Source of the DNA: Planctomycetia bacterium | GTDB taxonomy: Bacteria > Planctomycetota > Planctomycetia > Pirellulales > PALSA-1355 | DNA length: 36,190 bases | Direction: 5' to 3' | NCBI GenBank assembly: GCA_016200205.1 | Contig: JACQFF010000059.1 | Location: 1-36,190, forward strand | Part shown: piece after piece, positions 8,976 to 31,243 of the stretch | Layout of the letters: each line of letters begins with the position of its first letter | How positions within the stretch are numbered: the first letter of the stretch is position 1 | The notes under the pieces: model-generated | Databases searched by the model: none | Told to the model about the DNA's origin: nothing | The model's input: only the letters and a program-made list of their open reading frames with translations | Program-made: the position numbers and the translations under genes

Positions 8976-9238
8976 TGGGCCAAAGGCCCAAGCTGCATCA
9001 GCCAGGGGCATCGCCCCTGGCATCGTGCGCTCTACGAACATTTCAAGCCCCAACGGGGCGATCTGACCCATCAACACAAAGCGCGTTCAAGCGATACGTA
9101 CTGTTCACCTTACGGAGCGACCGGGGGTCGCCGTCCCCGCGAGGAGACAGATCGCCCCGGTGGGGCTTGCGAGGGGCTCGCGCTGGATCGTTCCGAGGGG
9201 CGTTGCCCCTGGCTGTCACAGGTTGGGCCTTTGGCCCA
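8976..9238. repeat. REPIN-like inverted pair of hairpin repeats
   Basis: Two arms of about 90 nt (8976-9065 and 9148-9238) are imperfect inverted copies of each other around an 82-nt spacer. Each arm is a chain of short-loop hairpins: TGGGCC-AAA-GGCCCA at the outer end, a CCAGGGGC / GCCCCTGG type stem next, and GCCCC / GGGGC with a 3-nt loop near GATCTG at the inner end. The structure resembles the inverted REP doublets (REPINs) mobilised by RAYT transposases of the IS200/IS605 type. No transposase is present in the window. ORFs called across this block (8745-9386, 8975-9310) are products of the repeat. Confidence 0.75.
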
Positions 9239-9348: not shown

Positions 9349-11286
9349 CTACACGGTCACATTGTCGTCCCGCGGGCGAGGATTGAACGCGAGCTCGACG
9401 TCGTCGATCCGGATGAAAGCCTGCGGTGGAACGCCGTCCAATGGCAATTCCAAAATGCCGGGCGTGACTTTTTCCACAATCACGGCCACGCCGATGCCAC
9501 GGCTGGTTTCCATCGCGCCGGCGTCCTGGCTGCGGAGAGTGGCCGCGACCTGAAAGCGGTCGTACTTCGGCTGTCCGGCTTCGCACCAGGCGGGCTGAAA
9601 ATCGAACGTGGCAAATTGCCGATGCTGGCGATGATCTTTTTTCAGATCGAGGAATCCGAAAATCGCCAGCCGGCAAACGAAATGTTTTAGAAACACTTCG
9701 CGGTAGAAGTCGCTCGATTGCGAGGCGCCGCAGGCGTGGATGGAGAAAGTGAATCGGCCGGCGCGCGGGTTGCGAACCTCTTGTGTGAGCATGGCCCGGG
9801 CGCCTTGTGGGATTCGCAGAGCGCCGGCTATCGGATGACTCGATTTCAAATCGGCCCCCTCACCCTGCCCTCTCCCGCGAGGGGAGAGGGTTCCTGGAAC
9901 GACGCCGAATCCCAACGCGGCGTGACGCTCGCCGTTGCGCGAGTTGATTGAGTCTTTGACGAGCATCACGCCCAGTTCGCCCGGCTGTTCGGACGTCAGA
10001 ATCGGCGATGCCTGCCACGTCTTGGCGCGGGTTTCGGTGCCGTGCGGCTCCAGCGGCGTCGCGCTTTCGAAATCGGTATCGTGCACCTGCCGATCGTCGT
10101 ACGGGGCAACCAGAGCGACGTTGCCCTCGGGTTGGACCCGCTCGGCGGTGGCCGGCCTGGTGCCCAGCAATTTCCACAGCGGCTCGCCTTTGCTCACCTG
10201 CAGCGGGCGGCCCGTGCGATCGCGGAACATCGCGTCGTGACCGATGCCAAGCAGATGGAAAATCGTCGCCGTCAGCTCCGGCGGCTGCACCCGGTTGGAG
10301 GCCGGATAGCCGCCCGTTTTGTCGCTCGAGCCATAAACCTGGCCGCCAGCGATGCCCGCTCCGGCCAGAACAAAGCTGAACACCGGGCCCCAGTGATCGC
10401 GGCCGCCAAACTTGTTGATTTTCGGCGTCCGGCCAAATTCGGCCACGGCAACGACCAAGGTTTCCTGCAATAGCCCGCGCTGGTCGAGGTCCTCGATCAA
10501 TGCGGTAAACCCGACGTCGAACATCGGGCAGAGTACGTCCTGCAGCCGGTTGGCGTTTTGAGCATGAGTGTCCCATAGCGGGTTGTCGACGGCCGTGTCG
10601 CCCGGATCGCGCGGCCAGCCCACGTGCACCAGCCGCACGCCGGCTTCAATCAATCGCCGCGCCAGCAACACGCACTGGCCCCAGCGGTGGGCGCCGAGGA
10701 AACCGGCCGTCTGGCCGGCGGGGCGCACATTGTCGTTCAACCGCATGATGTCGGGAATCCAGACGGTGCTCAGCGCCGGCACGCGCGTGCTGGGCTTGAG
10801 CATCTTGACCACCGAGCCGAAATAGGGCCAATCGCTGGGCTTGATCTCGCGCGCGCTGCCGGCCTCGTACTTGTTGCCGGTGAGCACCCAATAGCCGCTG
10901 GTGTCGTGCGTGTTGTCGTCGGTCGACATCGAGCGGACCACGGCCAGCTTGTCGGCAATGGCGGCCGTGCGGGGCAAGAGTTCACAGACTTGGATGCCCG
11001 GCACGTTGGTGGAAATGGGCTTGAACGGCCCGCGGATTTCCAGCGGGGCGTCAGGTTTGGGATCGAAGGTCTCGTGCTGCGGCGGTCCGCCTTGCAACCA
11101 CAAGTAGATGACATTCTTGGCCCGGCCGAATGTCGGATCACTCGATGCGGCGGTCGCCCCGCGAGACTGGGCCGCCAGCAGGGTGGGCAGCGACAGCCCC
11201 AGCAGATTCAAGCCGCCGATCTTCATCAGCTCGCGCCGCGAGATTCGATCGCACAGCGTGTACGGCCGGTCGTCGAGCGAGAACAT
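9349..11286 (-). CDS. DUF1501 domain-containing protein with Tat-like leader
   Basis: A 645-aa protein of the alkaline-phosphatase/sulfatase-like DUF1501 family typical of planctomycetes. ATG 11286 is preferred to GTG 11292 because AGGAG lies 10 nt upstream of it. The leader SRRELMKIGGLNLLGLSLPTLLA has a twin-arginine motif followed by a hydrophobic stretch, suggesting Tat export. Family motifs: NVIYLWLQGGPPQHETFDPKPDAP, AVVRSMSTDDNTHDTSGYWVLTG, VAVAEFGRTPKINKFGGRDHW, and PPELTATIFHLLGI. DUF1501 genes often pair with a DUF1549/DUF1553 cytochrome-type gene, which is absent here. The C-terminal roughly 230 residues go beyond the usual length. They contain a repeat-derived segment TLSPRGRGQGEGAD (codons about 464-480), then a beta-rich tail ending in FIRIDDVELAFNPRP. 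Confidence 0.93.
   Translation of the reverse strand: MFSLDDRPYTLCDRISRRELMKIGGLNLLGLSLPTLLAAQSRGATAASSDPTFGRAKNVIYLWLQGGPPQHETFDPKPDAPLEIRGPFKPISTNVPGIQVCELLPRTAAIADKLAVVRSMSTDDNTHDTSGYWVLTGNKYEAGSAREIKPSDWPYFGSVVKMLKPSTRVPALSTVWIPDIMRLNDNVRPAGQTAGFLGAHRWGQCVLLARRLIEAGVRLVHVGWPRDPGDTAVDNPLWDTHAQNANRLQDVLCPMFDVGFTALIEDLDQRGLLQETLVVAVAEFGRTPKINKFGGRDHWGPVFSFVLAGAGIAGGQVYGSSDKTGGYPASNRVQPPELTATIFHLLGIGHDAMFRDRTGRPLQVSKGEPLWKLLGTRPATAERVQPEGNVALVAPYDDRQVHDTDFESATPLEPHGTETRAKTWQASPILTSEQPGELGVMLVKDSINSRNGERHAALGFGVVPGTLSPRGRGQGEGADLKSSHPIAGALRIPQGARAMLTQEVRNPRAGRFTFSIHACGASQSSDFYREVFLKHFVCRLAIFGFLDLKKDHRQHRQFATFDFQPAWCEAGQPKYDRFQVAATLRSQDAGAMETSRGIGVAVIVEKVTPGILELPLDGVPPQAFIRIDDVELAFNPRPRDDNVTV
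9857..9890. repeat. CCCTCACCC/CCCTCTCCC hairpin repeat inside the DUF1501 gene
   Basis: CCCTCACCC, then CCCTCTCCC paired with GGGAGAGGG around a short loop. The same unit occurs twice in inverted order at 25557-25642. Here it lies in frame within the DUF1501 coding sequence and is translated as Arg/Gly/Glu-rich residues. Confidence 0.8.
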
Positions 11287-15734: not shown

Positions 15735-16364
15735 TTATTTGGCGTCTCGGTCATATTTGGCTCGCAATCGCCGATAATCATCGGGCGTATCCAAATCCTC
15801 GACCACCGCATCGTCGCCAACGTGGAGATACGCGACCGGATGACGCGCCACGAGCGTGTTGATCGCCTCGTCGGCCGCCAGATGGGCCACTTCGGCGGCC
15901 AGTGGCCAGGCAAACAACACAGGATGGCCGTTGCGGTCGTCGGCGCGTGGAACCCAGATTCGCGCCGGCTCGCCGGCTCGCACCTGGTCCCATTCGTACG
16001 CACCGATCAAACGATCGATGGTTCGGGCCAGAATTCCTGGCATATCGGCCGGCGCCAGCAGCCATGCATCATGAGCGTCGGGGTGAAACTCTCGTTCGAT
16101 GCGCTCCAATCCCAGCCGAACTGAAACTTTCATTTCGCTCGGTGCAATGTCGGGTTGCACCACCAACGCACCGCACTCGCGGCTCAACTCGGCCAGGCGT
16201 TGGTCGTCCGGATGCAGGACGATCACCGTCTCGGCGACCCGGCTCGAACGCCACTCCTCCAGCACGTACTCGATGAGAGTTTTCCGGCCCCACGGCAACA
16301 GGAGCTTGGGCTGGCCCATGCGCTGGCTGTGGCCGGCGGCAGGAATAACGGCATAGGTTTGCAT
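15735..16364 (-). CDS. MobA/MocA-like nucleotidyltransferase (molybdenum cofactor maturation)
   Basis: A 209-aa NTP-transferase-fold protein starting at ATG 16364 (MQTYAVIPAAGHSQRMGQPK). The N-terminal signature AAGHSQRMGQPKLLLPWG is the pyrophosphorylase loop typical of the MobA/MocA family, including the lysine after the glycine. LLAPADMPGI carries the metal-binding aspartate, and NGHPVLFA is the conserved NGHP motif. This set fits MocA, which attaches CMP to molybdopterin for the xanthine-dehydrogenase family, rather than MobA proper. The upstream neighbour in the same direction is xdhC, which strongly supports a role in maturing a molybdenum hydroxylase. A MITE-like element separates the two genes. 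No hydroxylase gene is present in this window. Confidence 0.88.
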   Translation of the reverse strand: MQTYAVIPAAGHSQRMGQPKLLLPWGRKTLIEYVLEEWRSSRVAETVIVLHPDDQRLAELSRECGALVVQPDIAPSEMKVSVRLGLERIEREFHPDAHDAWLLAPADMPGILARTIDRLIGAYEWDQVRAGEPARIWVPRADDRNGHPVLFAWPLAAEVAHLAADEAINTLVARHPVAYLHVGDDAVVEDLDTPDDYRRLRAKYDRDAK

Positions 16365-16402
16365 ACAGGCGCGCCGCAATTCGCTGAGGAGACATCACTC
16401 TT

Positions 16403-16540
16403 TAAGAACGCGTCTTCAAAACGTTCCGAACGTTGGAATTTGGGAGGGCGAAGCTCCCGCTGAGCCGATTTTGCACCGGAAGGTAGAGGCTCGGCAGGAG
16501 CCTCGCCCTCCCGGTCGCGTAATTTGAAGACACGTTCTAA
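16403..16540. mobile_element. MITE-like element, copy 1, between xdhC and the mobA-like gene
   Basis: The element body 16406-16537 (132 bp) is flanked by a 3-bp direct duplication TAA (16403-16405 and 16538-16540). Terminal inverted repeats GAACGCGTCTTCAAA and the complement of TTTGAAGACACGTTC match at 14 of 15 positions. The inside is almost fully self-complementary (GGGAGGGCGAAGCTCC against GGAGCCTCGCCCTCCC), so the whole element folds into a long hairpin. It has no ORF. A second copy lies at 31110-31240 with about four differences. Such size, symmetry and target duplication identify a miniature inverted-repeat transposable element; the source transposase is not in the window. Confidence 0.85.
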
Positions 16541-16563: not shown

Positions 16564-17658
16564 CTAGTCAGGATCGGTCGCCAGGCTAGGCCGCGGGCGC
16601 GTGGCGTCTGGAGTGGTGCCCAGATTCCGATGTGCCACGAGCTCGGCCGTGATGCTGACGGCGATTTCCATGACCGTTTGCGAACCGATGTCGAGTCCCA
16701 CGGGAGCGTACACTCGATCGAGCGCCTCGGGCGAGATTCCTTCGGCCAGCAGGTCGTCGAAGATCAGTTTGATTTTGCGTTTGCTGCCGATCATGCCCAC
16801 GTAGCGGCCCCCTCGGTCGGCCAAGTGAAAAAGGGCTTCTTCGTCGTGGTTATGTCCGCGGGTCACAATCAGACAATACGTGTTGGGCGTGATCTCCAAG
16901 TTAGGCAGCACTTCGGTCATTGATCCCGCGATCCGCCGTTGGGCGCGGGGAAAGCGGGCTTCAGTCACGTACTCTTGCCGATCGTCGATGACCCAGACGT
17001 CGAAATCGAGCTCGGCGGCGAGATTGCCCACCGCCTGGCCAACATGCCCCCCGCCGACGATGATCAATCGCGAGCGCGGCAGCATCGGCAGATAAGCCAC
17101 GCCACGTCGTGCACTGGGCCGCGGCCGATCGGACAGCGGCTGCAAGCCATCGCGAATCGCGCGCGGCGCCAGGCCCTCTTCCAACGGTCCGCGGATGTGA
17201 TCCATGAGTCGCCCGTCGGCGTCGAACAAATAACTGGCCGTTTCCGGCAAGCCGCTGGCTTCGGCGTCGAATACGATCGCTTCGGTTCCGCCGGCTCCCT
17301 GGCTGCCCATTTCGCGCAACTTCAAAAAATAGTCGCGAGCGGCCGTACGCGACATCGAATCGATCAGCACTTGCATTCGACCGCCGCAAATCAGGCCGTC
17401 GTCCCAACCATAGTCATCATCAAGCTGAAAGCGGACCACCGAAGCATCGTCCTTGGCCAAGACCGCCAGGGCTTGCCGCTTCACCTCGGCCTCGACGCAG
17501 CCGCCTCCCAAAGTGCCTGACTGGGAGCCATCGTCGAAAACGAGCATCGCCGCGCCCGGCTTTTGGGGCGTAGACCCCCGCGTTTCGACCAGCCGACAAC
17601 AGGCGACGCGGCGGCCGCTTTGGACGGCGGATATCAATCGATCGAGAAGTTCACGCAT
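16564..17658 (-). CDS. XdhC family protein (molybdenum hydroxylase maturation)
   Basis: A 364-aa protein of the XdhC/CoxI family, which binds the molybdenum cofactor and helps insert or sulfurate it in xanthine-dehydrogenase-type enzymes. The start is ATG 17658 (MRELLDRLISAVQSGRRVA); the ORF track extends it 182 residues into unrelated DNA. The N-terminal domain has RLVETRGSTPQKPGAAMLV, SQSGTLGGGCVEAEV and DGLICGGRMQV, with the conserved cysteines. The C-terminal Rossmann domain begins with RLIIVGGGHVGQAVGNLAAEL, followed by VIDDRQEYVTEARFP and CLIVTRGHNHDEEAL. It ends with VYAPVGLDIGSQTVMEIAVS, also diagnostic. It is upstream of, and codirectional with, the MobA-like gene. Confidence 0.95.
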   Translation of the reverse strand: MRELLDRLISAVQSGRRVACCRLVETRGSTPQKPGAAMLVFDDGSQSGTLGGGCVEAEVKRQALAVLAKDDASVVRFQLDDDYGWDDGLICGGRMQVLIDSMSRTAARDYFLKLREMGSQGAGGTEAIVFDAEASGLPETASYLFDADGRLMDHIRGPLEEGLAPRAIRDGLQPLSDRPRPSARRGVAYLPMLPRSRLIIVGGGHVGQAVGNLAAELDFDVWVIDDRQEYVTEARFPRAQRRIAGSMTEVLPNLEITPNTYCLIVTRGHNHDEEALFHLADRGGRYVGMIGSKRKIKLIFDDLLAEGISPEALDRVYAPVGLDIGSQTVMEIAVSITAELVAHRNLGTTPDATRPRPSLATDPD

Positions 17659-17843
17659 ACTTGCTAGCTTATCTGGCACCGCGATCTGCGACAACAGAGG
17701 GCGCGCTCGAGGCTCAGCAATGTCGATCAATCCCATATCGCAGTGCGATATACGCCTCAAAAAATCGTTCCTTCTCAACCCTTTTGGCAAGCGATAGTAT
17801 GTTGGTTTGATGGCGGTAGTGCACTGGGGGTTGTCCAGGAAAC

Positions 17844-18800
17844 ATGAGCAAGCTCGAATCCTCGCCTGTGCGGTTGCGTCCCGAGCCTCTGCCCGACAAT
17901 TTGCGCAGCGTGCAGCCCGGCGGCGGGTTTTGCTACCGAGCTGAATTGGCGTGGGGGGTCTGGCGGCGGTGGTATTTGCGCCATTTTCGGCCCGGCTACG
18001 TCCGAACGATGGCCGCGCGTCGGACGGGCCAATCGACCGGTGCTCCGCACGATATCCTGGATCCCCGCGATCTGAAGTACTGCCGCAACCAGTGCGACTG
18101 CGATTGGGCCGGAGAGCTGGACCCGTTTCGTTGGCGAGAGAAGCTGCCGTTTGCCCGCTGGGGTTTGGCCGAATTGCAGTTGATGGGCTATCCCTTGCTG
18201 GCACTGACGATCAGCGGGGCATGGTTCGCCTGGTACCTGGCCATGGTCCCGGGCGTCGTGTTGGGATCGCTTGTCTATTTTTTCCGCGACCCGCGGCGGC
18301 ACGTGCCCGAGGGAGCCGGACTGTTGGTCTCACCCGCCGACGGGACGGTGGCCGAGATCTCAGCGCTTGCGCATGACGATTTTATCGGCGGTCCCGCTGT
18401 GCGGATCGGGATTTTTTTGTCCATTTTCAACGTCCATATCAATCGGGCACCCGCCGAATCGCGGGTGATCCGTTTGCGTTACTCACCCGGCGCGTTCCTC
18501 AATGCTCTGAATCCCGAGAGTACGATTCGCAACGAGAACTTGTGGATTGGGCTGGAAGAGGAGAGTTCGCCCCATCGACGGCTCGTGGTTCGGCAGATTG
18601 CCGGGCTGATTGCCAGACGGATCGTGTGCGACCTGCGCAGCGGCGAGGTAGTCGCACGCGGACACAAATTCGGTATGATCAAGCTAGGCTCGCGCACCGA
18701 ACTGATCTTTCCGGCTGAAACCGGGCTGCAGGTCCTGGCCAAAATCGGCGATAAAGTCCAAGGCGGCTGCACGGTTTTGGCCCGCTACGAAAGCACATGA
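17844..18800 (+). CDS. psd: Phosphatidylserine decarboxylase with N-terminal extension
   Basis: A 318-aa protein that converts phosphatidylserine to phosphatidylethanolamine through a self-made pyruvoyl group. ATG 17844 has AGGAAAC just upstream. The catalytic part starts near residue 100: a membrane segment (LLALTISGAWFAWYLAMVPGVVLGSLVYFF), then PADGTVAEI, FLSIFNVHINRAPAESRV and GHKFGMIKLGSRTEL. The Gly282-Ser283 pair is the predicted self-cleavage site that forms the alpha and beta chains. The first 95 or so residues are extra for the short (archaeal-type) class and carry a cysteine group YCRNQCDCDW at about residues 79-88. pssA follows after 24 nt, so the pair makes phosphatidylethanolamine in two steps from CDP-diacylglycerol and serine. 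Confidence 0.93.
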   Translation: MSKLESSPVRLRPEPLPDNLRSVQPGGGFCYRAELAWGVWRRWYLRHFRPGYVRTMAARRTGQSTGAPHDILDPRDLKYCRNQCDCDWAGELDPFRWREKLPFARWGLAELQLMGYPLLALTISGAWFAWYLAMVPGVVLGSLVYFFRDPRRHVPEGAGLLVSPADGTVAEISALAHDDFIGGPAVRIGIFLSIFNVHINRAPAESRVIRLRYSPGAFLNALNPESTIRNENLWIGLEEESSPHRRLVVRQIAGLIARRIVCDLRSGEVVARGHKFGMIKLGSRTELIFPAETGLQVLAKIGDKVQGGCTVLARYEST

Positions 18801-25556: not shown

Positions 25557-25642
25557 CCCTCTCCCTTTGGGAGAGGGTTGGGGTGAGGGCGAATCCGCAG
25601 AAGACAAGGACCCTCACCCTGCCCTCTCCCACGGGGAGAGGG
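25557..25642. repeat. Inverted doublet of the CCCTCTCCC hairpin repeat
   Basis: Two mirror-image units. The left is CCCTCTCCC-TTT-GGGAGAGGG followed by GGGTGAGGG. The right is CCCTCACCC followed by CCCTCTCCC-ACG-GGGAGAGGG. Each has a 9-bp stem and a 3-nt loop. The doublet fills the gap between the convergent synthase and SDR genes and may serve as a two-way transcript end. A single unit occurs inside the DUF1501 gene (9857-9890). Confidence 0.8.
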
Positions 25643-30121: not shown

Positions 30122-30303
30122 GCCCAAAGTCGCCAAGCTATGCGGCTGGCCGTCGACAGTCCCGTCGCCGGGACCAGCGGGCGATCAGTTCTAGTCGTAT
30201 TGCTTTACACACCGCAGCTGATTCTCCATACTAGGTGGCCCAAGAAGGGAGCCGCTGTTGCGATCCAACGGCTTGCATCGCCGGAGAGTTGCGGGGGTGT
30301 GGA

Positions 30304-31110
30304 ATGGCCGGCCTTAGCGTGAATGAGATGACGACCTATCGCTGGTCGTTCGAGGAAGATGTCACCCGCTACCGCGACGCCGGCATCGAGGCCATCGGGG
30401 TCTGGCGGCAGAAGCTCACCGATTTTGGTGAAGACCGTGCCCTCGGCCTGCTGGCGCAAAGCGGCCTGAAAGTTTCCAACCTGTTGTGGGCCGGCGGGTT
30501 CACCGGCAGCGATGGCCACTCGTACCAAGAAGGACTGGCGGACGCCCGCGAAGCCCTGCATCTGGCAGCCGCCCTCAAAACGAGCCATCTGATCGTCTAC
30601 AGCGGGGCCCGCAACGGTCACACGCAGAATCATGTCCGGCGACTTTTCAAAGGCGCGCTGGGCGAATTACTGCCGCTAGCCGAGCAACTCCAGATCTTCT
30701 TGGACGTCGAGCCCATGCACGCCGGCTGTGCCGAGGAGTGGACTTTCTTGACAAGTCTCGACGAAGCGCTATCGCTCGTCGACAGCGTGGGGAGCCCCTT
30801 TCTGAAGCTCGCTTTCGACACCTATCATTTCGGGCACGATCCGCGCATCGTCGAACAGATCGGCATCCTCGCGCCGCACATCGGCATCGTACACCTGGCC
30901 GACGGCAAGGGCCCGCCCGATCGCGAACAAAACCGGCATTGCTTGGGCGAAGGAGACGTGCCTTTGCCCGGTATCGTCAAAGCGCTCAAACAAGCCGGCT
31001 ACGACGGCTACTACGACGTCGAACTGATCGGCGAGGAAATCGAACGCTGCAATTATCGGCAGTTGCTCCGGCGATCCAAGCGGGTATTCGAGCAGTGGCT
31101 GGTCGCTTAG
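30304..31110 (+). CDS. Sugar phosphate isomerase/epimerase-like TIM barrel protein
   Basis: A 268-aa protein of the AP-endonuclease-2/xylose-isomerase-like TIM barrel class. The start is ATG 30304 (MAGLSVNEMTTYRWSFEEDV); the track's GTG 30235 is an alternative. Barrel signatures include the strand/helix unit YRDAGIEAIGVWRQKLTDFG and VSNLLWAGGF. Putative metal ligands are seen in FLDVEPMH (Glu, His), LAFDTYHFGHDP (Asp, His), IVHLADGKGPP (His) and ELIGEE (Glu). GDVPLPGIVKALKQAGYDGYYDVE is the typical C-terminal block. Substrate unknown. The stop codon TAG (31108-31110) is partly supplied by a MITE-like insertion: its TA comes from the target duplication and its G from the element. Confidence 0.88.
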   Translation: MAGLSVNEMTTYRWSFEEDVTRYRDAGIEAIGVWRQKLTDFGEDRALGLLAQSGLKVSNLLWAGGFTGSDGHSYQEGLADAREALHLAAALKTSHLIVYSGARNGHTQNHVRRLFKGALGELLPLAEQLQIFLDVEPMHAGCAEEWTFLTSLDEALSLVDSVGSPFLKLAFDTYHFGHDPRIVEQIGILAPHIGIVHLADGKGPPDREQNRHCLGEGDVPLPGIVKALKQAGYDGYYDVELIGEEIERCNYRQLLRRSKRVFEQWLVA

Positions 31111-31243
31111 AACGCGTCTTCAAAACGTTCCGAACGTTGGAATTTGGGAGGGCGAAGCTCTCGCTGAGCCGATTTTGCACCGGAAGTAGCGGCTCGGCAG
31201 GAGCCTCGCCCTCCCGGTCGCGTAATTCGAAGACACGTTCTTA
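31107..31243. mobile_element. MITE-like element, copy 2, at the isomerase stop codon
   Basis: The element body 31110-31240 (131 bp) is flanked by a 3-bp duplication TTA (31107-31109 and 31241-31243). It matches copy 1 at 16406-16537 in the same orientation with only about four changes (one 1-base indel). The terminal repeats GAACGCGTCTTC and GAAGACACGTTC and the internal complementarity are as in copy 1. No coding capacity. TTA is the reverse complement of the TAA duplicated at copy 1, so the target preference is the same three bases on either strand. Confidence 0.85.

Follow-up and report, generated by a model that had tools for sequence, protein, structure and literature searches.

Internal deletion gives rise to many bacterial MITEs, and the source of their interiors is as a rule either not known or ascribed to deletion. 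The described families RUP, NEMIS, ERIC and Nezha are non-coding elements of 70–300 bp with terminal repeats of 15–30 bp, which are located near genes and form a strong hairpin (PMC3733652). Members of the IS1031 group of insertion sequences (ISs) have in common that they contain one ORF and insert at a site of 3 nt (PMC2516522). Classical REPs carry a GTAG or CGTC tag (PMC3733652). In REPINs, two inverted REP-like units and a loop make up a hairpin dispersed between genes, and such inverted pairs on both sides of a Y1 transposase gene characterise a REP-associated transposase (PMC3116915). The TIRtrons, or TIRYT, described by Di Nocera et al. (2013; PMC3733652) combine terminal repeats with REP biology and have a gene for a Y1 transposase between these repeats.

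The element considered here is located in a planctomycete DNA stretch of 36,190 nucleotides, hereafter the window, which belongs to a draft genome of 4.96 Mb in 328 contigs. It is very probably a chimera, a MITE of about 30 copies in which IS1031-like ends of the IS5 family, moved in trans, surround a REP-doublet cargo. As a mobile unit it is ordinary, and it is close to certain that the block is a copy of a non-autonomous MITE of IS5 type. The family is new but its kind is known, and it is the recurrent cargo that is unusual.

Copies, target duplications and empty sites

Copy 1 occupies positions 16406–16537 (132 bp). It begins with the terminal inverted repeat GAACGCGTCTTCAAA (16406–16420, plus strand) and ends with the repeat GAACGTGTCTTCAAA (16523–16537, minus strand), the two differing by one mismatch in 15 when inverted, and the trinucleotide TAA is found on both sides (16403–16405 and 16538–16540). 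Copy 2 (31110–31240, plus strand, 131 bp) has the same orientation, with its REP-like arms at 31146–31170 and 31191–31215, and is flanked by TTA (31107–31109 and 31241–31243). The copies differ by three substitutions and one indel (97% identity). The DNA fold of the element has an energy of −41.7 kcal/mol versus a mean of −21.3 for shuffled sequences (z −6.9, reached by none of 200 shuffles), and the RNA fold gives a z-score of −8.9 against shuffles. The inverted ends, self-complementarity, flanks and second copy listed in the preliminary description were all found to be correct.

The genome-wide search revealed about 30 copies of the element in the host genome, which are 77–99% identical. The family consensus is 131 bp long and has no coding capacity; copy 1 falls into a subgroup of four copies with one extra G. 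Twenty complete young copies are 0–4 positions off the consensus, with a mean of 2.7 pairwise differences in 131 bp (2%), which supports the recent activity first suggested by the two window copies. Approximately nine older copies show 77–89% identity to the window copy and are 14–32 positions off the consensus. A copy internally shortened to 76 bp (G000:C286; L167:207–282), which has kept its ends and lost most of its interior, is located in contig 286 between two perfect TTA trinucleotides.

Identical 3-bp flanks were found in 23 of the 29 complete copies (18 of 20 among the young ones) and are nearly always TAA or TTA. When flank partners were shuffled, a mean of 9.7 and a maximum of 19 of the 29 copies matched in 20,000 trials versus the 23 observed, and the same test moved 3–15 bp outward gave 0–1 matches. 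The reconstructed target is CTWAG or TTWAG (YTWAG) in 21 of 29 cases. The listing of flanks across the genome confirms the TWA target and the initial interpretation of the block as a non-autonomous MITE with a 3-bp duplication: the element is shorter than 300 bp, non-coding and multi-copy, has terminal inverted repeats and a duplication of constant length, and is missing from an orthologous site, as described below.

The left inner spacer (16421–16441, plus strand) contains the palindrome AACGTTCCGAACGTT (ACGTTC-C-GAACGT), which was previously read as a nested or duplicated end. In the alignment of 30 copies it is perfect in nearly all members of the young subfamily and in a single older copy (c23); seven of the eight older copies c22–c29 read roughly ATGCTTCGAACGAT at this place. 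The reading as a nested IS end was rejected, since the perfect palindrome is absent from most older copies. Judging from the alignment, it looks like a late improvement of a weak palindrome and is best seen as a trait derived in the young subfamily.

The copies are mostly intergenic. Copy 1 is situated between a gene of a MobA-like NTP transferase (15735–16379, minus strand) and a gene of the XdhC/CoxI family (16564–18204, minus strand). Copy 2 is inserted exactly at the stop codon of a gene encoding a xylose isomerase-like TIM-barrel protein (30235–31110, plus strand, assigned by a Pfam match); the left TTA overlaps this codon. The insertion leaves the TAG stop intact, with the initial base of the copy serving as the third base of the codon. 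At least five copies (numbers 5, 6, 19, 20 and 25 of the genome-wide set, one of them being copy 2 of the window) coincide precisely with the stop codon that closes a long adjacent open frame, these frames being mechanical, uncurated ORFs except for the gene next to copy 2. Some insertions occur right at gene ends because the CTWAG target overlaps the stop codons TAA and TAG, and the target duplication could preserve the stop codon when the element enters a gene end.

The window is syntenic with contigs of three related genomes (G001, G002 and G003). In G002 and G003 the intergenic stretch that corresponds to the site of copy 2 is shorter and lacks the element, and the gene end in G002 reads GCTAAGTG / ...GTGTGCTAAGTGCG / ...GTGTGCTAAGTGCGCC, with an unoccupied CTAAG at the place of copy 2. 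Copy 1 is also absent in the relatives, where the divergence between the genes is too great to place the junction to the base. In G001, a member of the same genus, about 1.4 kb of extra sequence is present at the position orthologous to copy 2 (L232, G001:C273:4950–6600), which indicates that this gene end is variable.

These comparisons bear on the possibility, raised at the outset, that the block is a functional site (an RNA hairpin, a terminator or a protein-binding site) kept by selection and not mobile. The very stable hairpin and the mostly intergenic positions agree with such a role, but the element has no match in Rfam, the terminator scan found in it no terminator-like site with a T tract, the copies are dispersed with target duplications, and the orthologous positions of relatives are empty. 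The duplications and empty sites in the main refute this explanation, and its probability is close to negligible.

Two other repeats were noticed in the window. A large nested inverted repeat at 8976–9238, with 50-nt arms 84% complementary and an inner pair at 9044–9169, is a different palindromic element. A direct repeat CCCTCACCCTGCCCTCTCCC... (9857–9886 and 25611–25640, 90% identical) is possibly another dispersed palindrome.

Terminal repeats and the mobilising enzyme

The search with the element in related genomes yielded short matches to its right end in two order-level relatives, G056 and G009, which turned out to be the ends of full-length ISs. An IS with matching ends and a 3-bp duplication is what the preliminary description had proposed to look for. 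The ISs with MITE-like ends (GAACGYGTYTTNAAA) are 890 bp long in G056 and 894 bp long in G009, where four copies are present. Their ends read GAACGTGTCTTCAAA and GAACGTGTTTTRAAA (GAACGTGTYTTNAAA), and most copies have TWA on both sides. Each contains a single ORF for a DDE-type transposase of about 265 aa; the G056 product reaches 235 bits against the NF033580 profile ('IS5 family transposase'), for which the cut-off is 110, and contains DUF4096 and DDE_Tnp_1 domains. Other relatives of this transposase, whose named genomes range from Pirellulales to cyanobacteria and actinobacteria, in many cases have TWA or TGA duplications inside CTNAG, as counted where the ends could be found automatically. 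The ends of the window element are judged to belong to the IS1031-like subgroup of the IS5 family, the single ORF and the 3-bp TWA duplication being the only features used for this assignment.

The preliminary description stated that the window contains no transposase and that the mobilising enzyme is unknown. The type of enzyme can now be named from the relatives as an IS5 family transposase (NF033580), and the first part of the statement can be extended to the host assembly. A 263-aa IS5 transposase query found no match in the 328-contig draft, and the NF033580 profile gave only four weak matches there (best 1.4e-8). No full-length IS with the exact ends was found in the assembly, where every exact terminal repeat sits in a MITE copy. 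The DNA pattern of the right end had no match in 84,980 named genomes, a set from which records near the window's genome may be excluded. Since multi-copy ISs are often missing from short-read drafts, these negative results do not prove that the host lacks the enzyme: it may have escaped assembly, and otherwise the MITE family is stranded.

As judged from the shared ends and duplications, the element appears to be mobilised in trans by an IS5-family enzyme that is lost or unassembled in the host. Supplied in trans, a DDE transposase of IS5 type would cut at GAACG...CGTTC, and the element would enter CTWAG with duplication of the central three bases (TWA). This offers a concrete IS5-type partner for tests, together with the rule that the target is CTWAG and in some cases lies at a stop codon.

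Two further genomes, G014 (L050:1420–1517, 98 bp) and G030 (L042:726–886, 161 bp), contain MITE-like elements that have terminal repeats akin to those of the window element and no REP core. The NF033580 profile has no match in either genome.

The REP-like interior

The interior of copy 1 (16442–16512) consists of two inverted 25-bp arms GGGAGGGCGARGCTCCYGCYGAGCC, namely arm 1 GGGAGGGCGAAGCTCCCGCTGAGCC (16442–16466, plus strand) and arm 2 GGGAGGGCGAGGCTCCTGCCGAGCC (16488–16512, minus strand), around a loop (16467–16487). Both arms are found outside the element in other genomes. The core occurs without the terminal repeats of the window element in G037, G041, G220, G086 and elsewhere, and the host itself has a few stand-alone cores (L164, L165 and the decayed L166). 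The exact arm pattern was found in 26 of 297 sampled genomes of the order, and the reversed control pattern gave zero matches. A comparison of G220 with G261 made for an empty site of a stand-alone doublet met with flanks that are not conserved. Exact matches to the arm were also noted in 15 stretches of IMG/VR viral contigs (L394–L408), which may reflect either carriage by phages or contaminating host DNA.

The core is an inverted REP doublet that forms a hairpin and has many dispersed copies, as in REPINs; the consensus GGGAGGGCGARGCTCCYGCYGAGCC carries neither a GTAG nor a CGTC tag at the REP end. The genome G061 holds 88 exact arms, and at L390 (G061:C477, positions 1253–1350 and 2041–2138) a gene of a Y1/HUH transposase is located between two near-identical repeats of about 230 bp. 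Each repeat holds an inverted pair of the REP arm, oriented tail-to-tail relative to that of the MITE. For REPs of this class, the G061 transposase is a candidate source enzyme. The core adjoins a Y1-transposase locus in one of approximately 60 screened loci, that of G061, and adjacency to a RAYT as a general rule was rejected on this count.

Among the 43 distinct doublets from all loci collected, 23 combine an arm of AT type (GAAGCTCC..GCTGAGCC) with one of GC type, many of them being copies of the window element. In such doublets one strand has G-U pairs where the other has A-C mismatches, which hints that the hairpin of one strand matters.

Another possibility is that the whole unit is a REPIN moved by an enzyme of the Y1/RAYT type, the 15-bp ends being only an extension of the hairpin. 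In favour of this are the nature of the core, its position beside the Y1 transposase in G061 and the six matches of the Y1_Tnp profile in the host. However, Y1 transposition (IS200/IS605) is not known to give a 3-bp target duplication, and 23 of 29 copies have one; besides, the fixed 15-bp ends are shared with the DDE ISs, and none of the host Y1 loci examined has an adjoining core. A transposition of the whole unit by a Y1 enzyme is highly improbable.

The element could also have been derived by internal deletion from one autonomous element of IS5 type, with the core as leftover IS sequence that is palindromic by chance. Internal deletion is, as mentioned, a common source of bacterial MITEs, and the ends match IS5-type ISs. 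On this reading, one would expect an autonomous IS that carries the GGGAGGGCGARGCTCC palindrome next to its terminal repeats. Past the first 15–20 bp the 890–894-bp ISs bear no likeness to the core. This explanation is further weakened by the stand-alone cores of other genomes and by the MITEs with related ends and no REP core in G014 and G030, and it seems improbable.

We infer a REP-type element as the source of the core, and its acquisition by capture is likely. The cargo of the chimeric MITE would be a REP doublet and not a shrunken transposase gene, that is, a palindrome spreading separately in related planctomycetes, and it would make nearly the whole element one long hairpin.

The same core was found in MITE families with other ends. 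The genome G162 contains more than 20 full or partial core-bearing copies (L316–L345), of which the complete ones are 130 bp long and have the ends GAGGGTGTCCGGGAATT; perfect flanks, TTTC and GTAT, in two of five copies suggest a 4-bp target duplication. In G024, about 15 core-bearing copies of about 120 bp (L346–L363) have the ends GGCTTTGTCTCAA and, in most cases, TA flanks. The G024 and window elements share some sequence between end and core, AAAACG...TTCCGAACGT, and may descend from one ancestor with diverged ends. The existence of window-like ends without the core (G014 and G030) and of the core with other ends (G162 and G024) indicates that ends and core assort. It might be suggested, as a tentative and rather doubtful generalisation, that the REP doublet is a modular cargo that has repeatedly entered unrelated DDE-type MITEs with at least three end types (GAACGYGTCTTCAAA, GAGGGTGTCCGGGAATT and GGCTTTGTCTCAA), so that two independent enzyme systems spread it, namely its own Y1/HUH route and the IS transposases on which it hitch-hikes, or that its hairpin gives MITEs an advantage.

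The interior of the window MITE can be traced to a repeat that is dispersed on its own, and three MITE families that differ in their ends have this interior in common. If the acquisitions were independent, MITEs would draw recurrently on REP-type palindromes as raw material, and parts would be exchanged between two classes of small repeats that are treated apart, namely MITEs mobilised by DDE enzymes and REPs mobilised by Y1 enzymes.

Comparison with known systems

A literature search with partial coverage found no planctomycete MITEs with REP cores. The window element resembles RUP, NEMIS, ERIC and Nezha in its size, terminal repeats, lack of coding capacity, location near genes and strong hairpin, but differs from them in its ends, target and host, and an independently dispersed REP-doublet interior was not found described in the account of these families (PMC3733652). 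With the IS1031-like group of the IS5 family it shares ends beginning with G(A/G), the 3-bp TWA duplication and the existence of same-ended single-ORF DDE ISs, and it is distinguished from this group by the lack of a transposase and by the REP-type interior. Like REPINs (PMC3116915), it contains two inverted REP-like units that form a hairpin with their loop, are dispersed between genes and, in G061, are found near a Y1 transposase. Unlike in REPINs, the core is enclosed here in DDE-type terminal repeats with target duplications, the GTAG tag is absent, and the link to a RAYT is seen in one genome only. The TIRtrons (PMC3733652) also join terminal repeats with REP biology, but in the window element it is DDE-type terminal repeats that flank a REP doublet, in the place where TIRtrons have the Y1 transposase gene.
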